NCBI GenBank assembly: GCA_036426205.1
Contig: CM071570.1
Location: 70,121,429-70,185,428 of the forward strand
From: Ascaphus truei
Taxonomy: Eukaryota; Chordata; Amphibia; Anura; Ascaphidae
Reading direction: 5' to 3'
Length of the DNA stretch: 64,000 bases
Position 1 is the first letter of the stretch. Every line of letters begins with the position of its first letter. The notes below the pieces were generated by a model. It ran no database searches and had not been told where the DNA came from. It saw only the letters and a list, made by a program, of their open reading frames with translations. The position numbers and the translations under genes are program-made. Positions 20,268 to 63,624 of the stretch are shown here, in pieces.

Positions 20268-20427
20268 GGACATTACCACTTTACATGAACATGGGAACAT
20301 ATTTACATTACCAACTCGGAGGCTCCTCCAAATGTCACTCCCAGAAACCTAAGTTCCAGAATCTTCGGGATAACTATATATACCTTGCTGCAGTGGAAGT
20401 GCTGTGTGCTGGGTGATAATGGTGAAA

Positions 20428-21955
20428 TTATTTATTTATTTATTTATTTATAAAATATTTTACCAGGAAGTAATACATTGAGAGTTACCTCTCGTTTTCA
20501 AGTATGTCCTGGGCACAGAGTAAAACAAAATAATACATGGTTACAAATACAGTTACATAAATGAACAAGGTATACATTATATACAAGACATTGCATGCAC
20601 AGTTAAAGAAAATATATATTATGAGCGTATGAAACAGTTACAGACCAGATTAAAGTGTGAGACAGCCTTAGATTTGAAAGAACTTAAGCTGGTGGTGGAT
20701 ATGAGAGTCTCTGGTAGGTTGTTCCAGTTTTGGGGTGCACGGAAGGAGAAGGAGAACGTGTCTGGATACTTGTTAAGCCTTGGGACCATGAACAGTCTTT
20801 TGGGTGGATCTCAGGTGATAAGTGCTGCAAGTGGTGGGGTGAGGAGCTTATTCAGGTAGCTGGGTAGCTTGCCCTTGAAGAATTTAAAGGCAAGACAGGA
20901 AAGGTGAACTTTGCGCCTAGACTCGTGTTGACCAATCTAGCTTTGAGCATTTCTCAGTGATGTGTGTTTTGTAGTTGCATTGGAGAACAAAACGACAAAT
21001 TGAATTGTAGAGGGTGTCAAGTTTGCTAAGGTGGGTTTGAGGTGCCGAGCCATATACTATGTCTCCATAGTCAATAATTGGCATTAGCATCTGCTGTGCG
21101 ATACGCTTTCTGACCAGGAGACTTAGGGAGGATTTGTTCCTGTAAAGTACCAATAGTTTGCATAGGTCTTGGTTGTCAGGGTATCAATGTGCATCCCGAA
21201 TGTTAAGTGGGAGTCAAACCATAAGCCCAGGTATTTAAAACTAGTGACAGGTGTTAGGGTGGTGTTAGCGTTGGTTCTAATCAGGAGCTCAGTCACTGGA
21301 AGCTTTACAAATTTAGTCTTGGTCCCAAATACATTGTTACAGTCTTGTCAGTGTTTAAAAACAGTTTGTTTTGGGAAATCCAGTTTTCGAGTCTCAAAAA
21401 GTCAAACTGGAGTATGTGTTGAAGGTCAGAGAGGCTATGGCTGTGTGCATATAGGATTGTGTCATCTGCATACATGTGTATTGAGGCTTCCTTACAAGCT
21501 GTGGGAAGATCATTAATGAACACTGTGAAGAGTAGGGGCCCCAGAACAGAGCCTTGCGGGACACCACAGGTGATATCCAGGGGGTTGGAGTTAGAGCCTG
21601 AGATGGACACATGTTGGGATCTTCCTGATAGGTAGGACTGAAACCAGTTTAAAGCATGCTTCCCTATTCCAGAGCTCTGGAGTTTGTTAAGCAGGATAGC
21701 ATGATCAACTGTGTCAAAAGCCTTTTCAAAATCTAGGAATACTGCACCAGTGAGTTGTCCCCGTTACATTCCACACTGGATTTCATTGCAAACTTTTAGC
21801 AGGGTAGTTACGGTGGAGTGTTTGGGACGAAAGCCAGATTGGAATTGGCTAGGGAAAATTGTCTTGGTATAGAAATCGCTTAATTGGGAGTGGACACATT
21901 TTCCATGACTTTGGATAGAATTGGGAGAAGTGAGATTGGCCTGTAGTTTGAGACA
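20428..21955 (-). mobile_element. 5'-truncated non-LTR retrotransposon (LINE)
   Basis: On the minus strand this encodes the C-terminal half of a reverse transcriptase. GVPQGSVLGPLLF, FINDLP and the catalytic YADDT occur in the frame at 21305-21610, and a thumb/C-terminal region (IDYGDIVYG, LSKLDTLYNSICRFVL) at 20917-21153. The frame between them is broken, so the copy is dead. The 3' end (20428 side) has a (TAAA)n tail. A 6-bp repeat GTGAAA at 20422-20427 and 21956-21961 is the likely target duplication. The signature fits the CR1/L2/Rex1 group, but I cannot fix the clade. Related copies lie at 27140, 31012 and 36803. Confidence 0.9.
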
Positions 21956-22124
21956 GTGAAAGGTGGGGTTGCAGACCTGCCTAAGACATGCAAATGAGCA
22001 TATAGGAATATTTGCTATATGCTTTGCTGTGTAGGGTTTTTGTCACTTTTTTTACTCACCATAACTTAACTAAGTATGGTAAACCCCATCCTCATTGCTT
22101 CATTGCATAGCCAGTTAACCAACC

Positions 22125-22169
22125 CCACACTGAGGAGACCCATTAAGGTCTAAAGAGTTGTCTGTGGGT
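22125..22169 (+). ncRNA. Hammerhead-ribozyme-like core, decayed (R1 copy)
   Basis: CCCACA is followed by the canonical box CTGAGGA (22131-22137), a 4-bp helix II (GACC, loop CATTAA, GGTC), then TAA where GAA is expected, a degraded helix III, and C (22163) before TGTGGG (22164-22169). TGTGGG is fully complementary to CCCACA, giving a 6-bp helix I. The G12-to-U change and the lost helix III palindrome suggest it no longer cleaves. Confidence 0.65.
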
Positions 22170-22699
22170 GAGTTTTCTGGCTATGCATCTTAACCCTGTC
22201 TGTGCTTAAAGCTGTGACCATGCAGCAAGCTTAAGCCTTTAGGAAACCATGTTAAAAATGGTTTTGAAGCAAAAGGTGACACTGTGTGCCCACTTGCATG
22301 TTATTTCCCAGAATCCCTTGCTGCAGTGGAAGTGCTGTGTGCTGGGTGATAATAGTGAAAGGCGGGGTTGCAGACCTGCCTAAGACATGCAAATGAGCAT
22401 ACAGGAATATTTGCTATATATATCCCCATGGTGACGTTGTCACTTGTCACCATGCATACAGAGGGAGTGAATTCTTTCCTGCTATGTCATTCTTTAACAT
22501 GGGATGGGTGAGGGGTGTTACCTTGCATGAGCCCACACAGTTAACCCCTTAATGCCGTTAACCACTTACATGATATAATAGTCCCTAGGGGGGGGGGGGG
22601 GCTACATTTACTGGGAAAAACAGGATACAACATACTTTCTTCAGCAATGCAAAGATTAGACTTAAAAACAGCATAAATCAGGAACATAAAATGTCCTCA

Positions 22700-38029: not shown

Positions 38030-38347
38030 CATATATTTCACTATTAAGGTTATGGTGGGTAAAAAAAAGTGACTAACACCCTCCACAGTAAAGCATAAAG
38101 CAACTGTAAATATTCCTGTATATTCATTTGCATATCTTAGACAGGTCTGCAACCCTGTCTTTCACCATTATCACCCAGCAAACAGCACTTCCACTGCAGC
38201 AAGGGATTCTGGGAAATGACATGCAAATGAGCACACAGTGCCACTTTTTATCTCATGCTCACATTACATGAGCAACCCTTAGCCAATGCATGCTGCTTTA
38301 AACACAGCTTTTAAGCAAGGACTTGGGAGATGCAGTCAGTTAACCCA

Positions 38348-38390
38348 CTCACAGACATGTTTCAACCTTGATGGGTATCATCAGTGTGAG
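38348..38390 (-). ncRNA. Hammerhead ribozyme candidate, near-canonical (R1 unit 1)
   Basis: On the minus strand: CUCACA, then canonical CUGAUGA, helix II ACC-CAUCAA-GGU, then GAA, a palindromic ACAUGU (helix III formed between two molecules or within a dimer), C17, then UGUGAG, which is fully complementary to CUCACA. Predicted cleavage is between 38354 and 38353. The only core deviation is a U·U in place of the usual G-C pair next to the core of helix II. The decayed copy at 22125 keeps that pair (GACC/GGUC), which supports common descent from a functional ribozyme. Confidence 0.75.
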
Positions 38391-38751
38391 GTTGGCTTGC
38401 TGACATTTGCTCAAATGAGATAAGAGTAGGTAATCACCACCACTATTAAGGTTATGGTGGGTAAAAAAAAGTGACTAAAACCCTCCACATTAAAGCATAA
38501 AGCAAATGTAAATATTCCTGTATATTCATTTGCATGTCTTAGACAGGTCTGCAACCCTGTCTTTCACCATTATCACCCAGCAAACAGCACTTCCACTGCA
38601 GCAAGGGATTTTGGGAAATGACATGCAAATGAGCACACAGTGCCACTTTTTATCTCATGCTCACATTACATGAGCAACCCTTAGCCAATGCATGCTGCTT
38701 TAAACACAGCTTTTAAGCAAGGACTTGGGAGATGCAAAGTCAGTTAACCCA

Positions 38752-38794
38752 CTCACAGACATGTTTCAACCTTGATGGGTATCAACAGTGTGAG
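38752..38794 (-). ncRNA. Hammerhead-like core, unit 2, A6 changed
   Basis: It is the same as the unit 1 motif, with complementary CUCACA/UGUGAG and the ACAUGU palindrome, except that the box reads CUGUUGA. Loss of the conserved A6 should abolish cleavage. Confidence 0.65.
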
Positions 38795-38985
38795 ACTGGC
38801 TTGCTGACATTTGCTCAAATGAGATAAGAGTAGGTAAGACATGCAAATGAATATACAGGAATATTTACAGTTGCTTTATGCTTTACTGTGGAGGGTTTTA
38901 GTCACTTTTTTTTACCCACCATAACCTTAATAGTGGTGGTGATTACCTACTCTTATCTCATTTGAGCAAATGTCAGCAAACCAGC

Positions 38986-39028
38986 CTCACATTGATGATA
39001 CCCATCAAGGTTGAAACATGTCTGTGAG
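38986..39028 (+). ncRNA. Hammerhead-like core, inverted unit, C3 changed
   Basis: CTCACA, TTGATGA, helix II, GAA, ACATGT, C (39022), TGTGAG on the plus strand. C3 has become U while G8 is unchanged, which breaks the C3-G8 pair and probably weakens activity. Confidence 0.65.
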
Positions 39029-39556
39029 TGGGTTAACTGACTTTGCATCTCCCAAGTCCTTGCTTAAAAGCTGTGTTTAAAGCAGCATGCATTGGCTAAG
39101 GGTTGCTCATATAATGTGAGCATGAGATAAAAAGTGGCACTGTGTGCTCATTTGCATGTCATTTCCCAGAATCCCTTGCTGCAGTGGAAGTGCTGTTTGC
39201 TGGGTGATAATGGTGAAAGACAGGGTTGCAGACCTGTCTAAGACATGCAAATGAATATTTACAGTTGCTATATATATATTTTTTGTGACAAGAGAAAGCC
39301 ATAAACTGTCTGCATGAAACTTTCACATACAGTGTATTTATTTTTCCTAGGGAATGCAAAATTTCCTTATTTTAGCTATTCTTTTATTTTAATTCAGTAC
39401 TTTTACAAATAATGTATATTTGTAATTACGTGCAAGGAATGAATATGTGTTGTCTGAATGTTTATTGTTTGTTTCTGTCTTTTTCTGTACCATTAAAGAG
39501 CATTGTGTAGAATCCAAATACTCTTAACTAAAACAGATCTTGAGTGTTCTTTAAAT

Positions 39557-47846: not shown

Positions 47847-48407
47847 AGATATGCAGGGATGAGGCGTCTTAAATACCTGGTTGGTATTAGGGTAATTACA
47901 AAAATCTGCGTGAGATCGCGCCACATACCTACTGCGCATGTGCATGACGTCACCCGGGGCGCCGATACACCACCCCTAAGGATTATGGGTACGGACCGCC
48001 CCCTGCTGCAGTCTGCGCATGCCTACATCAGGCATGAAGACAGGGATATCCAAACTGATCTCTGCCTCCACTTCCGCCAATAGTGACGTCACTGCGGATT
48101 TGTGATAGGTTGACATTCATTGGTGGTGTAGCGGTGTACCTCAACCTATCACAAATCCGCAGTGACGTCACTATGGGCGGAAGTGGAGGCAGAGATCAGT
48201 TTGGATATCCCTGTCTTCATGCCTGATGTAGGCATGCGCAGACTGCAGCAGGGGGCGGTCCGTACCCATAATCCTTAGGGGTGGTGTATCGGCGCCCCGG
48301 GTGACGTCATGCGCATGCGCAGTAGGTATGTGGCGCGATCTCACGCAGATTTTTGTAATTACCCTAATAACAACCAGGTATTTAAGACGCCTCATCCCTG
48401 CATATCC

Positions 48408-51007: not shown

Positions 51008-52246
51008 TATGTCATTAACAAAAGGCCTTCAATATATCTTGGTTCCAACAAAACTAAAAGGAACTCTGACTGCATCACTATTACTATCTGATTTTAATCT
51101 CATGTCCAGTAGAATACATTGATTATTGAATGCAGCTTTATAGCAGTATTGCTTCCTCTATTTATTTATTTTTTGCATCATCTTACAGTATGTTTCACAC
51201 AAAAGGCACAACTTAATATAAAATGATCAACGTCATCCATCAGGTATGAAAGACAATACAATTGTTTATACATACAGCACATACACCCGCACATACATAC
51301 TGTATACTGTATGTGTATACGCATGACATTGAATGGTGTAAATATATAATTAAGAGAATGTTGCATTGCATATATTGATATTTAATACTTGAGAAGTAAT
51401 GGAAATAGAGCCTGGGAAATCATTATAGAGGATCTACTGAAATACTGTAGTGTCACATCTCTCTCAACCATGGTGCCAAAGGAATTAAACCAAAGCCTTG
51501 ATAAAAGGGTCTGGCTATTTGTACTGCATTAAATCATAAAAGGGGTGATGTATCAGGTGGAAAGTAGGGCAAAATGAAAGACTAAAAACTGCCAAACATT
51601 TAAATAGAGAAATATACTGTGGAAATATTCATACAATTACATAATTGTTTGCATAATAAAACAGATTATTTTATGTACAATGTCACTAAAGAGTTTTTGT
51701 AAATTTTCCAGTTCATAAACTGTCAAAGTGAATACTGTATGTAGTTTATTGGCTTATACAGGCATACCCCGTTTTACGTACACCCGCTTTACGTACACTC
51801 GCAAGTACGTACATTTATTTTTAGTTGCACCATATCCCTGTGTACGTATGCATGCTTTGCGAGTACGGACACCAGGGGGCCGCGTGCGTGCGCACCTCAT
51901 CAACACTGCAACCTCCTTCATTGTGGTCTCAACTGAGTGGGGAGTGCAGGTAAGGGTAAGGGGAACGGGGCCAGATGGCAGGGGAACGGGGAGATCGGGC
52001 GCGCCATCAATCAGCAGCTATAGCAGTGATTCCGCCCGCAATGCAGCTCCTGGCTCTTCTCCCTCCTCCCTCTGCTCTCCTCCCTCCTCCCTCCTCCCCT
52101 CCCTCCTCCTCAGAGCTCGCTCTAGCCTCTGCTGCTGCTGCTGTAGAGAGGAAACTTTGCATGTGAGTTACGGAGGAGGAGATGCTTTCTAATGAATTCT
52201 GTCATTTGTGTGTTGGTGTGTAGTGTGTGGTGTTGCTGAGTGTGTG

Positions 52247-56650: not shown

Positions 56651-56892
56651 CAAGTTAAAGGCCCTCGGTACAAGTTAAAGGCCCCCGGTACAAGTTAAAG
56701 GCCCTCGGTACAAATTAAAGGCCCCCCGGTACAAGTTAAAGGCCCTCGGTACAAGTTAAAGGCCCCCCGGTACAAGTTAAAGGCCCTTGGTACAAGTTAA
56801 AGGCCCTTGGTACAAGTTGAAGGCCCCCCGGTACAAGTTAAAGGCCCTTGGTACAAGTTAAAGGCCTTCGGTACAAGTAAAAGGCCCTCGGT
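56651..56892. repeat. 20/21-bp minisatellite, 12 copies
   Basis: CAAGTTAAAGGCCCTCGGTA recurs at 56651, 56671, 56691, 56711, 56732, 56752, 56773, 56793, 56813, 56834, 56854 and 56874. The unit is 21 bp when it carries CCCCCCGG. Confidence 0.95.
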
Positions 56893-57014
56893 ATATAGTG
56901 ACATGAGACAGGGCTGTCTTTCACTGGACTTGTTGAGATTAATTTGTGTTGCAGTCCTAGGGAGTCAATTCAGCTTATGTGCTGAAGGGGGAATGGATAA
57001 GAGCCATAATATAT

Positions 57015-57560: not shown

Positions 57561-60075
57561 CAGGCATACCCCGTTTTACGTACACCCGCTTTACGTACAC
57601 TCGCAAGTACGTACATTTATTTTTAGTTACACCATACCCCTGTGTACGTACGCATGCTTCGCGAGTACCGACACCAGGGGGCGGCGTGCGTGCGCACCGC
57701 ATCAATACTGCAACCTCCTTCATTGTGGTCCCTAACTGAGTGGGAGTGCAGGTAAGGGGTAAGGGGGAACGGGGCCAGATGGCAGGGGGAACGGGGAGAT
57801 CGGGCGCGCCATCAATCAGCAGCTATAGCAGTGATTCCGCCTGCACTGCAGCTCCTGGCTTTTCTCCCTCCTCCCAGCTTGATCTAGCCTGCTGCTGCTG
57901 CTGCTGTAGAACGGAACTTTGCATGTGAGTTACAGGCTACGGGGGAGGAGGAGGTGCTCTTCTACTGCATTCTGTGCTTGTGTGTGTGTCTGTGCCTGTC
58001 TGTGTGTGTGTGTTTCTGTGTCTGTCTGTGTGTGTCTGTCTGAGTGTGTGTGTGTGTGTGTCTGTGTGTGTGTCTGTGTGTGTGTCTGTGTGTGTGTCTG
58101 TCTGAGTGTGTGTGTGTCTGTCTGAGTGTGTGTGTGTCTGTCTGAGTGTGTGTGTCTGTCTGAGTGTGTGTGTCTGTCTGAGTGTGTGTGTCTGTGTGTG
58201 TGTCTGTCTGAGTGTGTGTGTGTCTGAGTGCGTGACTTGAGTGCGTGTGCTACGGAGTGTGTATGCGTGTGCTACGGAGTGTGTGTGCGTGCGTGACTGA
58301 GTGCGTGTGCGACTGAGTGCGTGTGCGTGTGTGACTGAGTGCGTGTGCATGCGTGACTGAGTGAGAGTGCGTGAGAGATTGTGTGACTGAGGGAGTGCGT
58401 GAGAGATTGTGTGACTGAGGAGTTGGCTGAGAGATTTCTGTGACTGAGGGAGTGCGATGAGAGATTGTGTGACTGATGGGTGCGTGAGAGATTGTTGTGA
58501 CTGTGAGGGAGTGCGTGCGTGACTGTGGGAGTGCGTGAAGATTGTGTGACTGAGGGAGTGCGTGCGTTGACTGAGGGAGTGCGTGAGAGATTGGTTGTGG
58601 ACGTGAGGGAGTGCGTGAGAAGGGATTGTGTGACTGAGGGAGTGCGTCGTGACTGAGGGAGTGCGTGCGTGTAAGCCAAGCTGATAAAGGACCTGAGTAA
58701 GGCCGTGCGTATAGTGCCGGCGAGCCGCCTAAAAACAAACACATTGCCGCCGCCGCGTGTGCGCTTTAGTAGCGTCTAGAGCGGCAATGCGACGGAGCGG
58801 ACTTTGGAAGCTGGGAATATTTGATTTTTCAACAGCTGTCACCTCATGTGACAGCCCCTGAACAAATCAAATGCCCGGGAGCCCGCGACGCCACCGCAAA
58901 GCGAAATATAACTTTCGCTAGCGGGGATGGGTGACGTTGCCGGTCGCGGGCACTATATGATCGGCCTAAGGAAGCACAGCATTGTAAAACACTGTCCTGT
59001 ACAGTATTGTACTGTATTGTTTTCACCAAAGTCACAAATCAAAGTCCCAAAAATATATCAGTCAGTCAAATAAATGCACCTCACCTTCATACCCTTTCAG
59101 TAAAAATACTGTACAGTAGAAGATATGCCCTCTCCTTCTTCCTTCCTACATGTTTTTAAAATAATTTTCCATTCATCCATGTTGTATCTGCCAGTACTTA
59201 TAAGAAAAATCAGCTGACATTAAAGATTTTATTTCAATAAAGCCTACTGTATTTATTTTGGTTACAAATGCATTATTTACATCAGTTATTCTTGTATATG
59301 ATGTTTGCAGTACAGTATGCCCTTGTGGACTACAATACGTCAATCACACAATCCGATAACTGTGCGTTGCAATCCTTGAACATATTCACAACATTATTAT
59401 GGGCTTAGAGGCACATAGTGTTTCTTTGCTTTTCAAACCTTTTTACCATTCTAACCCTAAGGGTTTAATATTGGAGGACCTTGATCAGGTCCAGCCATGC
59501 TGCAGGGAAGGAAATAGACTCCAGAGTCTTTTTGGATTTTCAATTTGTGTTCTCAGTATGGTCTGAAAATAGATTTGGACCTAATTCTTCTTTAACCTAA
59601 TATTACGTTATATCTGACCATTCATTGCATCCCTTGCAATGACTGCAATTCTGCATTGATAGTTGTCTCCATTTGCATATTTTTATCTACTTGGGTCTAT
59701 TTAAGTATTTTTCTTTATTTCTATTTTTGATTTCTTTACATTTTACTATATAGTGGAGACGGTCATTACCAAATGCCTATGTAAACTTGAATATGGATAT
59801 CTCCTGTAATTACATATTTTGGATTATAGATCGTTCAAAACCATTTTTTACTCCCTGCACTGTTTCACGCATGACCTCGGATCCTCAGAGGAAGCTCCCC
59901 CTCTAATCACCCCCCCCCCAAAAAAAACACATAAATAAACACACGACAAAGGTCTGGAGGTTCAAGGGCCACGGCTTTATTTACACAAATAATAATAAAC
60001 CTTGGTGAGTGCTACCACTGCCAGCGTGCTCTCCCCCTGGGTAAAGGCCATTGGCACCCCAACCATGGCCCGCAC
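57561..60075 (+). mobile_element. Second Tigger-like element, right end missing
   Basis: It begins CAGGCATACCCCGTTTTACG after TA (57559-57560). The long GC-rich, TG-rich terminal block and the middle segment match 54373 down to about 52400 in reverse order. The right terminal block is absent: homology stops at about 60075. The TG-rich part has expanded (57976-58680). Confidence 0.75.
57976..58680. repeat. (TG)n-derived and 28-bp tandem repeats
   Basis: Degenerate TGTGTCTGTCTGAG runs to about 58340 pass into imperfect units of GTGACTGAGGGAGTGCGTGA of about 28 bp. The long minus-strand His/Thr/Ser frames here are not genes. Confidence 0.9.
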
Positions 60076-60257: not shown

Positions 60258-60880
60258 TGTGACTAAGGCAACACCTGCCTTTTAAAATGTCCACCTCAGG
60301 TATGTCAACCTCATAGTCCTTCTTTTATTATTCTGGAGGCCAGGGTCATGTGTAGTATGATTAGCCCAGATAGGTTCAACTCATTCCTTTTACAAGCACA
60401 ACAAGTTCTTTGTCTTTCTTCACTTTATTGAGAAAAGGCATGGATTTACAAAGGCACTTGTGGATGATGGTGTTGGGAGAGAATGTCTCTATGGTGAGTG
60501 CGCTTGATAGTGGGGAAAGGGGGAAAAGGATAAGTCCTTGCCAGTAGAGCAAATTACAGGAGGGTACTCACTCAGCCAGTGTTGAAAGTGGAAAAGGAAG
60601 TGCCAGTGTATTCTGGGTAGCAAGGTAGCCTGGGGACAGACAATCTGTCAGCAAGGCAGAGGGGGAGAAGGCAGACTAGCCTATTCTGATAGAAAAGCTG
60701 AGGTTGCTGTAGCAACTCACTGGCATTATGCAGAGACAGGGATCGCAACACTGTGTCTAACACACAGGCACTGTGAGTGTACAGAGCAAAATACATGCAG
60801 CTGGAATGAGAACGTGACAAGCAAAGGCTGCAAAGGAAAGGGGGGTGGTAAAACAGAAATGTGGTTCTTGTTCCATGACA
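60258..60880 (-). mobile_element. Probable 3' LTR of the BEL/Pao element
   Basis: On the minus strand a polypurine-type AGACGGGGAG is followed by TGTCATGGAACAAG at 60880, the expected LTR start. A CA end is possible at 60258. The second LTR lies outside the window, so the length of 623 bp is tentative. Confidence 0.5.
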
Positions 60881-61049
60881 CTCCCCGTCTGGTATCTGGA
60901 GATACCACTATATAACTTGAATATGTGGTACATATGTGCAATGCAAACAAACATAACATAATAATGCAAAGTCCATGTCCACATAACGAGGCGATACCGG
61001 CTGGTACCAATGGCGTTGAAATCCTTTGGCAAAGTCTTTTAGCAAAAGA

Positions 61050-61766
61050 TGTTGGATGGATGCACCGGTCCAGGTTAGCTGGGTTCACCACAATGTCTCT
61101 CTGTGAAAGTCTCTGGCACTGTTCCTTTTTAAACTTATGGAAGAACAGTCCTTTTGTCTCTGTGGTTTTAGCTACAGAGTGCATCCCCTTGTAGATATGC
61201 CAGCTGTGGCAGCCTGTCACTCTAACACCAAGCGTTTGGCAGAAGGAGATGGCTTTAGGCTCCTTGCGGAAGTGGATCGACACTCCTGGAAGATCAGTTG
61301 TCGAATGTAGTCCAGTAAAGAGGGCGTCGTTCGGGGAGACTCCCTGGAGCTGAGCACTGGGGCTGAACACTACACGGATTTGATCGGGTTCCTGAGGGTG
61401 GTAGACCCCAGATGATTGGAGGTACCAGCATTCTTCACCTTTCTTTATTAGAGGTGCTGGCTTTGCGTGGCTGGTAAGGAATATCTTCTGGATGAAGGCC
61501 ACAAAGTTGTTTTTGGTCTCTGGTTCCCTTTGTAGGTCGCAGAGGTGCGAAGTGAACCTGGAGATGGCATGTTCTCCATTGTTTGGGAGGTGCCTTCTTG
61601 GTGAACGGAATGGTAGCGGGTTTACCCAATTGCCAGGTCCATTTTTGACGAGCTCCTTGACCGTTAACATCAGGAATTCTCTATCTCCCATCAATGGTGT
61701 TTGCTTGTCGTCCTTTCTGGTCTGGAACGCTGTACACCCTAAGTCATTGGTGCATTCCTCTTGCAA
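61050..61766 (-). pseudogene. BEL/Pao reverse-transcriptase N-terminal region, truncated
   Basis: The minus-strand frame contains GEECWYLQSSGVYHPQEPDQ followed by RVVFSPSAQLQGVSPNDALF and FRKEP. This is the conserved entry into the BEL/Pao reverse transcriptase (WYLPHH-VYHP--P-KIRVVFD-SA---GVSLND-L). After about KEPKAIS the expected catalytic core, RNase H and integrase are absent and the frame runs through non-homologous sequence towards the LTR. An internal deletion has therefore removed most of pol. The ORF start at 61766 is only the first Met after a stop. Confidence 0.75.
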
Positions 61767-61985
61767 GAGAACGTCTCCACGTATTTTGGTGATACGCCTT
61801 TGTGTCTCTTTGTTGACTGCCCTCAGGAGGTTGTTCTCTCCCTAGACATGACGAAAAACAGTCTCTTTTGTCCTTGTAAATCCTTTTGGGGAATGTCTCT
61901 GCAACTGTCTCCTCTTACGTGTGTGAAAGAACAGTCTTTTTATCCCTGTGGTTTCACCTGCGGGGTACAATCCTTTGCGGCTATT

Positions 61986-62285
61986 CTAGCTGTGGCAGCT
62001 GGCTGCTGTGTCGCTTGAAGTTCTGTGGAGAGGAATGGCTGTACATCTCAGCTGTGTCATTGCTCTCAGGGGAACTGTCTGATTGTTTCTTTTCCTTTGG
62101 GAGATCTTTTTGTCGGTCACCTTCGGGAGGTTACTTTCTTCCTTCGGTGGAGTCGACTCGTTATCCTTGGTTGTCTTAACCACTAAGCATCCTAGGCGGT
62201 TGCCACATCCCCCTGATGTGAGGATGTTCTTGTCGATCTCAGAGGTATGACCTTGTCTCTTCTCTTCACTTGGCCCTTCTGTCAC
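61986..62285 (-). pseudogene. BEL/Pao region between protease and reverse transcriptase
   Basis: An open minus-strand frame of 99 codons is rich in Glu, Lys and Thr and continues the polyprotein direction between the protease part and the RT part. It has no recognisable domain. A GAACAGTC…CAGCTGTGGCAGC segment (about 61930-62010) is partly duplicated at about 61140-61210. Confidence 0.45.
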
Positions 62286-62307
62286 TTGGAGATGGCCAAG
62301 ACATGGT

Positions 62308-63381
62308 TCAGAGAGGGATGTGATCTTTGTCAGTGCACGCGTTGCCCACTATCACCCATTCTAGGTCAAGTCTTTGGGCGTATGGTGCGTTGTGGGGTCC
62401 GTTATGCTGTTTACAGGCTTTATGTACCCTCAAGATGTCCCTACCGAGCAGCAGCAAGATCTTGGCGCCTTGTTCTACCGGCAGGATGTAGTTGGCTATT
62501 CCTCTGAGGTGCGGGTGATGGCGTGCCACGTCTGGTGTGGGAATCTCGTCCCTGTTTGTGGCCATGTGATTGCACTCGATGAGTGTGGGGAGAGCTATCT
62601 TCACTCTGTTATCCACTGAACATATGACGTAACCGCTTGCTCTTCTCCCTGTTGTCTCAGTTGACCCTGCACAGGTTCTGAGGGTGTAGGGTGAGGCATT
62701 GTCTTGTAAGTTGAATAAGTTGAAGAACTCTGTCTTTGCCAATGATCTGTTGCTTTGGTCGTCGAGGATTGCATACATCCGAATAGCCTTCTCAGGTCGT
62801 CCCTGGGGGTGTACTGCGACAAGGCATATTTTGGAGCAGGACATTTTGTCACTTTCTTTTCCGCAAACCTCGGTGCGCTGAGACGTGATGGATGTTGGCT
62901 CTCCTTCTCCTTGCTCCCCGCCATGCTCCGCTACAGAGATTGGTTGTTGAGTTGGTGTAGTGTCATTGTGCTTGTCACTTTTGCACACTGTACATTTGAT
63001 TTCTTCTTTACAGTCTCTGGCTAGGTGAGTCGTGGAACCGCAGCACCTGAAGCAAACTCTGAATTCTCCGAGTAACCTCTTGCGTTCCTCTAGGGACTTC
63101 ATCCTGAACCCAAAGCACTTGTTAAGTGGGTGTGGCTTCTTGTGTATGGGACATTCCCTGTTTGGGTCCCTTGGTTCCTCATCTCCGGCGACCGACTGAT
63201 CGGGAGTAGTATGGGTCGTGGGAGGCACGTCCGTCCTGTGGACCGAGATGGGTGTTTGAGTATTACCGTATCTCGCCACTGATCTCTCATTCCTCAGGCT
63301 GCTTGCACTGTGTGTGGTTTGCGCACCCAAGATGAAACTGGAATCGTTCCTTGTCCTTGCCGCTTCGCGGATGAAGCTCAA
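62308..63381 (-). pseudogene. BEL/Pao gag-protease fragment
   Basis: An open minus-strand frame of 357 codons. Near residues 75-135 there is a zinc-binding region, CPIHKKPHPLNKCFGF, then VCFRCCGSTTHLARDC, as in the gag end of BEL/Pao elements. Near residue 210 a retropepsin-like ILDDQSNRSL replaces the usual LLDSGS-type site, with TCAGSTETTGRRASGY in the flap area and LLLGRDIL further on, matching the Pao peptidase (DUF1758) pattern. It ends at a stop just after the protease, and the N-terminal gag lies in a separate upstream frame (63625-63906). The copy is old and non-functional. Confidence 0.8.
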
Positions 63382-63624
63382 GAAGAATGAGAATGGGGGG
63401 AAGGCGACTTGCTTCTCCCTTTTTTATTTGGAGCCTTGCGAAATCCATCTTTCTTGGAGGTTGTACGGTAGCTTCTCCAAGATGGGTCTCACTCCACGAG
63501 CTGATGACTGCTGGTCAGTGTGAGGGGCTGTGTTTTCACATGTGGGTGTACTTGAATTGCGAGCCCGTTGTGTTGCATCCGTGTGCGCGCTGGCGTGTGG
63601 ATCACTGTTGCGGCTGTGGCTATC

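Follow-up and report, generated by a model that had tools for sequence, protein, structure and literature searches.

Decayed copies of a 400-base frog repeat that seems to carry a hammerhead ribozyme and its own snRNA-type promoter

The window analysed here, a stretch of 64,000 nucleotides from Ascaphus truei, contains two insertions that seem to be decayed copies of a 400-base repeat carrying its own snRNA-type promoter and a hammerhead. In our view, with a probability of about 0.72, the repeat belongs among the non-coding elements that are mobilised through RNA, of the kind represented by amphibian satellite 2 and the non-LTR retrozymes, and has an snRNA-type promoter. What is observed in the window is the parts and their spacing, compensatory changes, a pattern of conservation along the unit, and ends located at or near (TA)n; the copies are mostly decayed, and the hammerhead core is complete in unit 1 only. 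The features of the insertions around 22 kb and 38 kb are collected in Table 1.

Table 1. Position, strand and particulars of the repeat copies, their predicted elements and the LINE that interrupts one of them
Feature	Position	Strand	Remarks
38 kb insertion, entire	38040..39268		units 1 and 2 (sense minus), unit 3 (sense plus); right end adjoins (TA)n
22 kb element, 5' piece severed by LINE	20383..20427	+	TATATATA directly before (20375-20382)
22 kb element, main piece	21956..22414	+	TATATATAT directly after (22415-22423)
Later LINE insertion, outside repeat	20428..21955	-	RVT_1 in ORF 21305-21763
Unit 1 hammerhead, complete type I core	38348..38390	-	predicted cleavage between 38354 and 38353; helix I extends to 38404 and 38335
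Unit 2 hammerhead remnant	38752..38794	-	A6 to U (CUGUUGA); cleavage base 38758
Unit 3 (inverted) hammerhead remnant	38986..39028	+	C3 to U (UUGAUGA); cleavage base 39022
22 kb hammerhead remnant	22124..22168	+	G12 to U (GAA to UAA); cleavage base 22162
DSE-like block, unit 1	38198..38228	-	octamer 38228-38221, Staf-like site 38215-38198
DSE-like block, unit 2	38600..38630	-	octamer 38630-38623, Staf/ZNF143-like site 38617-38600
DSE-like block, unit 3	39150..39180	+	octamer 39150-39157, Staf-like site 39163-39180
DSE-like block, 22 kb	22292..22322	+	one-mismatch octamer 22292-22299, Staf-like site 22305-22322
PSE-like site, unit 1	38450..38461	-	107 nt upstream of cleavage base; 4/12 mismatches
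PSE-like site, unit 3	38915..38926	+	107 nt upstream of cleavage base; 4/12 mismatches
PSE-like site, 22 kb	22055..22066	+	107 nt upstream of cleavage base; 2/12 mismatches

Within the window the repeat takes the form of two short insertions and no satellite array, and the 38 kb array is not among the entries of Tandem Repeats Finder. The head-to-tail 400-bp arrangement that had been claimed for it holds for units 1 and 2, which stand in tandem with 404 nt from cleavage site to cleavage site, but not for unit 3, which is inverted, an arrangement that twin-primed insertion would explain. At 22 kb, the LINE has GTGAAA on both flanks (20422-20427 and 21956-21961), and the pieces at 20383-20427 and 21956-22414 can thus be joined into one element; the reverse transcriptase of this LINE, used as a protein query, has thousands of relatives. 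TATATATA stands at both outer ends of the 22 kb element, as a target-site duplication might, but (TA)n is a common sequence; TATATATA also adjoins the 38 kb cluster on its right side, and on its left side 13 bases separate the cluster from a (TA)n run. Furthermore, the right ends of both insertions finish alike, with GAATATTT..GC before TATA, and no inverted terminal repeats were seen by eye at the ends of the elements. Both elements exceed one unit in length, as would be expected of copying from a circle or from a tandem transcript. Metazoan non-LTR retrozymes are recognised as short non-coding tandem repeats of about 150-450 bp with low GC and a type I hammerhead, and the present repeat agrees with this description, with a 404-nt period over two direct units and a GC content of 43% in the surrounding 2 kb. 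A pattern scan of viral contigs gave 0 matches; in the scan of genome contigs, an exact 20-mer in a Treponema bin was set aside as due to chance, the similarity to the repeat spanning 21 bases only.

The hammerhead that the original prediction had placed on the minus strand at 38348-38390 has all of its claimed parts. Read from 38390 to 38348, the motif is CTCACA / CTGATGA / TACC-CATCAA-GGTT / GAA / ACATGT / C / TGTGAG, with a 6-bp helix I, a 3-bp helix II based on the U-U that had also been pointed out, and a loopless ACAUGU palindrome as helix III. The exact form, with zero core mismatches and six of six pairs in helix I, occurs at one site in the window and in none of 40 first-order Markov shuffles of it. 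When the descriptor, consisting of the core and helices, tolerated one core mismatch, it returned four sites in the window, including the three 38 kb copies; the shuffles gave 1.0 site on average and at most 3. The 22 kb copy escapes this whole-window scan. The three further copies that had been claimed are likewise present, each with a fully complementary helix I and each with a different core base lost (A6, C3, G12), so that the complete type I core with an open-ended helix I is confined to one of four copies. In the 22 kb copy, helix II has 4 bp, a G-C pair replaces the U-U and the helix III palindrome is gone.

The covariance models of Rfam, proposed as a check on the original prediction, gave a mixed outcome. 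Zero entries were obtained for the whole window at gathering scores, and the hammerhead was absent from relaxed scans of 1.4 kb and of the whole window. In focused scans of single copies with laxer filters, which covered unit 1, unit 3 and the 22 kb copy, hammerheads below gathering were found in two of the three: the 22 kb copy matched RF00163 Hammerhead_1 with 25.7 bits (gathering 34; E 9.1e-5) and unit 1 matched RF02275 HH9 over 38335-38400 with 19.7 bits (gathering 52; E 0.0041); unit 3 by itself gave no hammerhead. Since the E values rescaled to 64 kb become about 0.06 for the Hammerhead_1 match and about 3.7 for the HH9 match, Rfam is insufficient by itself to settle the identity of the motif. 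The relaxed scan also returned microRNA-family matches over 38762-39018; this stretch is the palindrome that unit 2 makes with the inverted unit 3, and the microRNA reading was dropped.

In our judgement, the identity of the motif is settled instead by the extension of helix I. Beyond helix I, folding of the 38 kb units gives first an internal loop and then 4 bp of helix; a small loop follows, and after it comes a distal helix with 5 bp in unit 1 and 10 bp with a bulge in units 2 and 3 (in unit 2, 38814-38804 pairing with 38743-38734). The 22 kb copy, at about 75-78% piecewise identity to the 38 kb repeat, has the identical helix I layout in other letters, its distal helix being formed by 22104-22114 and 22177-22187. 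Over 24 stem pairs, the 38 kb and 22 kb lineages differ by four two-sided changes, all paired at 22 kb, one of them being the U-U to G-C replacement at the base of helix II, and by a single one-sided change, with pairing lost; the compensatory changes lie in helices I and II. In this stem list, the distal stem is that of unit 2 minus the bulged U; the middle helix follows unit 3, and a G-U is present at that place in units 1 and 2. With nine changes placed randomly, four or more such pairs arose in 1 of 200,000 trials, a value that is optimistic, since the stems were drawn up after inspection of both lineages, and that refers to a comparison of two lineages, not four. Thus, in view of an extended, looped helix I with compensatory changes between two lineages, the motif is, as judged from its sequence, a genuine hammerhead of a known kind.

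Local folding gave z values of -1.6 for unit 1 (12 of 200 shuffles folding equally well), -2.9 for unit 2, -2.7 for unit 3 and -5.2 at 22 kb. When the complementary strand was folded for unit 1 and the 22 kb copy, it did equally well (z -1.9 and -5.4), and fold stability is therefore not strand-specific. The monomer RNA, folded as 403 nt of the sense strand with the first U of the 404-nt monomer left out, is strongly self-paired (z -5.9; 0 of 100 shuffles equally good). Unit 1 RNA could take up the hammerhead fold, but this is not the predicted minimum: computed without helix III, the hammerhead fold lies above the minimum by 5.1 kcal/mol in unit 1, 4.3 in unit 2 and 5.8 in the 22 kb copy. For the palindrome of helix III, a duplex energy of about -4.6 kcal/mol was computed, in line with a dimer form, within which the intact core of unit 1 might act on the site of another copy. 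A wider claim had also been made for the repeat, namely that it is a self-cleaving satellite or retrozyme or descends from one. This is the reading with the best support, drawn from the sub-threshold Rfam matches, the compensatory changes in helices I and II and the z value of the monomer.

All four copies contain, in the sense of the hammerhead, an octamer (three exact, one with a single mismatch), followed after 5 bp by an 18-bp Staf/ZNF143-like site. Exact octamers number 14 in the window, and 9 of them lie within the repeats. Staf-like sites with at most one mismatch to the consensus taken from PMC5006282 number four in the 64 kb, all inside repeat copies, against an expectation of 0.37 per window from 30 shuffles. 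Upstream of the hammerhead, a PSE-like site starts exactly 107 nt from the cleavage base in the three copies that retain such a site there, and the linker between the two is about half identical despite this constant spacing. A T7-T8 run, which would stop Pol III, lies just 5' of the PSE-like site in both lineages (22047-22053, plus strand; 38463-38470, minus strand). Scored against the U6/7SK consensus quoted in PMC7949045, the PSE-like sites carry the mismatches given in Table 1, and two-mismatch matches occur by chance about 27 times per shuffled window; the 22 kb site includes TCACCATAA, identical to the nine letters with which the human H1 PSE opens in the same paper. As a sequence match, the PSE-like site is thus weak by itself, yet its position is constant. 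The next PSE-like site is found 156 bp from the Staf-like site and 169 bp from the octamer; in the chicken 7SK promoter, OCT-1 is reported at -222 and the PSE at -67 (PMC2235858). Past the PSE-like site, inspection by eye of the stretches from 22 kb and unit 1 revealed no TATA-like box and, by the rule given in PMC7949045, Pol II is favoured and the Pol III reading was set aside. The snRNA promoter of newt satellite II is described as being read by Pol II (PMC2220036).

Conservation along the unit was expressed as identities per 30-column window in a comparison of unit 3 with the 22 kb copy. Identical columns number 26-29 of 30 in the DSE-like block, 20-27 in the region that runs from the second octamer as far as the PSE-like site and 14-17 in the linker; the hammerhead windows have 20-23, the adjacent 3' stretch 22, and the body further on falls to as few as 13. 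On these identities, the promoter-like block is the best-preserved part, and the hammerhead is better preserved than the linker and no better than its 3' neighbour.

It is possible to put these elements together in the following scheme. The octamer and the Staf-like site would act as a DSE, with the PSE-like site about 156-169 bp downstream, both bound by their factors, and transcription would start very roughly 40-55 nt 5' of the cleavage base, at a point within or close to the 5' strand of helix I; where copies stand head to tail, each PSE would be served by the DSE of the monomer before it. The tandem transcript would fold into hammerheads of type I. In these, helix I would be long and interrupted by internal loops, and helix III would be a palindrome with no loop; such hammerheads would probably function poorly alone and better in pairs. 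Cleavage would free monomers of about 404 nt, a host ligase could close them into circles, and a borrowed reverse transcriptase could insert the circles at TA-rich sites.

Other readings of the same elements have to be considered. The hammerhead ancestry might be true and the promoter reading false, the octamers and the Staf-like site being no more than conserved arms of a rod-like RNA, with transcription supplied by read-through from neighbouring promoters, as proposed for retrozymes generally. This would be consistent with the two inverted octamers, which pair together in the predicted monomer RNA, with the weakness of the PSE-like match, especially at 38 kb, and with the description of retrozymes as apparently devoid of promoters in PMC7761336; it leaves unaccounted for a Staf-like site that lies 5 bp off the octamer in four of four copies and is absent elsewhere in the window, the constant 107-nt spacing and the precedent of newt satellite II (PMC2220036), and we regard it as somewhat unlikely. 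A further reading, which we judge to be unlikely, sees ordinary repeat DNA amplified and recombined at the DNA level, in which the hammerhead is a dead relic with no part in the spread. Although three of the four cores are broken, the layout is both tandem and inverted, and (TA)n flanks are prone to recombination, spread at the DNA level would not lead one to expect promoter-like blocks that outlive the linkers, helices altered in step, and a shared stop at the right ends of both insertions.

Many Penelope-like elements carry minimal type I hammerheads in their pseudo-LTRs, and the units could be the pseudo-LTRs of a decayed element of this type. Elements of this group with hammerheads occur in animals, including the axolotl (PMC7229834), and units 1 and 2 stand head to tail with unit 3 inverted; on the other hand, no reverse transcriptase is found between the units, the sole one nearby belonging to the later LINE (RVT_1; three ORFs examined with Pfam), and the long, looped helix I is the canonical form rather than the minimal one, which makes this origin very unlikely. 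That the likeness to a hammerhead arose by chance in an unrelated repeat is scarcely credible in view of the HH9 and Hammerhead_1 matches, the absence of the exact form from the 40 shuffles and the compensatory changes, taken in combination, even though the Rfam gathering scores are not reached and alternative folds are more stable.

On the preferred reading, that of an RNA-mobilised element with an snRNA-type promoter, the copies would be decayed relatives, in an anuran, of newt satellite 2 and of the axolotl non-LTR retrozymes. Newt satellite 2 was reportedly treated by Epstein and Gall in 1987, and its snRNA promoter by Coats in 1994. Satellite 2 of newts and salamanders, as described in PMC7229834 and PMC6155905, resembles the present repeat in being a repeat of a few hundred bp with a type I hammerhead, a looped helix I and a weak helix III; it also has snRNA-type promoter elements within the repeat (PMC2220036), which here are predicted. 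On a comparison made by description only, satellite 2 measures about 330 bp and forms an array, whereas the repeat here measures about 404 bp and forms two short insertions; moreover, its hosts are newts and salamanders, and ours is a frog. As far as these sequence features go, the looped, extended helix I and the promoter-like block, neither of which figures in the original prediction, link the repeat to newt satellite 2 more closely than the core does.

The axolotl non-LTR retrozymes Rtz_331 and Rtz_353, with HHR_Amex1 and HHR_Amex2 (PMC7229834), share with it a tandem non-coding repeat, low GC and a self-paired monomer RNA. In particular, HHR_Amex2, located in a 350-bp tandem repeat, has, like unit 1, a basal U-U in helix II, and its monomer repeat is reported to have been cut to 22% within one hour, with better cleavage as a dimer (PMC7229834). 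Its helix III, compared by description, has two base pairs and a tetraloop, in contrast to the loopless 6-nt palindrome found here, and for our repeat circles and cleavage are predicted features. In Xenopus tropicalis, repeat-associated hammerheads similar to the amniote C10 and RECK hammerheads have been reported (PMC3088659), so that frog hammerhead repeats as such are already known; these, too, are interspersed frog repeats, and the best Rfam match of unit 1 is to HH9, a family whose gathering score lies well above that of the match. Hammerhead-bearing Penelope-like elements are comparable in having type I hammerheads within animal retroelements and differ from the present repeat, in which no Penelope coding region was seen and helix I is long and looped, not minimal. 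Among the matches listed from the open-licence literature (titles and abstract openings), there was no earlier description of an snRNA promoter in a hammerhead repeat from a frog.

We tentatively entertain, as a conjecture with somewhat less than even odds, that frogs and salamanders have in common an old class of circular-RNA retroelements that bring along an snRNA-type promoter for Pol II, placed in register with the hammerhead. If so, the enhancer of each monomer would drive the next one and the promoter would travel along with the ribozyme, in conflict with the published view of animal retrozymes as seemingly promoterless. Ascaphus has a basal position among frogs and, if the preferred reading is right, a satellite-2-like ribozyme repeat with a promoter would be present near one of the earliest-branching frog lineages, suggesting that the satellite 2 design predates the frog-salamander split. 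In any case, the reading supplies a concrete, testable hypothesis for the transcription of such repeats.

Elsewhere in the window, other elements were noticed. At 48000-48254 there is a near-perfect inverted repeat with arms of at least 114 nt, 99% complementary, and a 27 nt spacer, which resembles a foldback element. The minus strand at 60726-63423 carries broken ORFs of what we take to be a BEL-type LTR retrotransposon; Pfam assigned no family to the ORF at 62308-63423 (minus), for which, among the best 120 of 289 matches, an Ascaphus truei protein showed the highest identity, 80% across 41% of the ORF, and full-query matches were 41-51% identical. A 15-bp tandem unit, CCCGCTTTACGTACA, is found both at 51768-51802 and at 57570-57604, about 5.8 kb apart, perhaps as parts of a duplicated segment, and at 56651-56893 a 20-bp unit, CAAGTTAAAGGCCCTCGGTA, is repeated twelve times in tandem.
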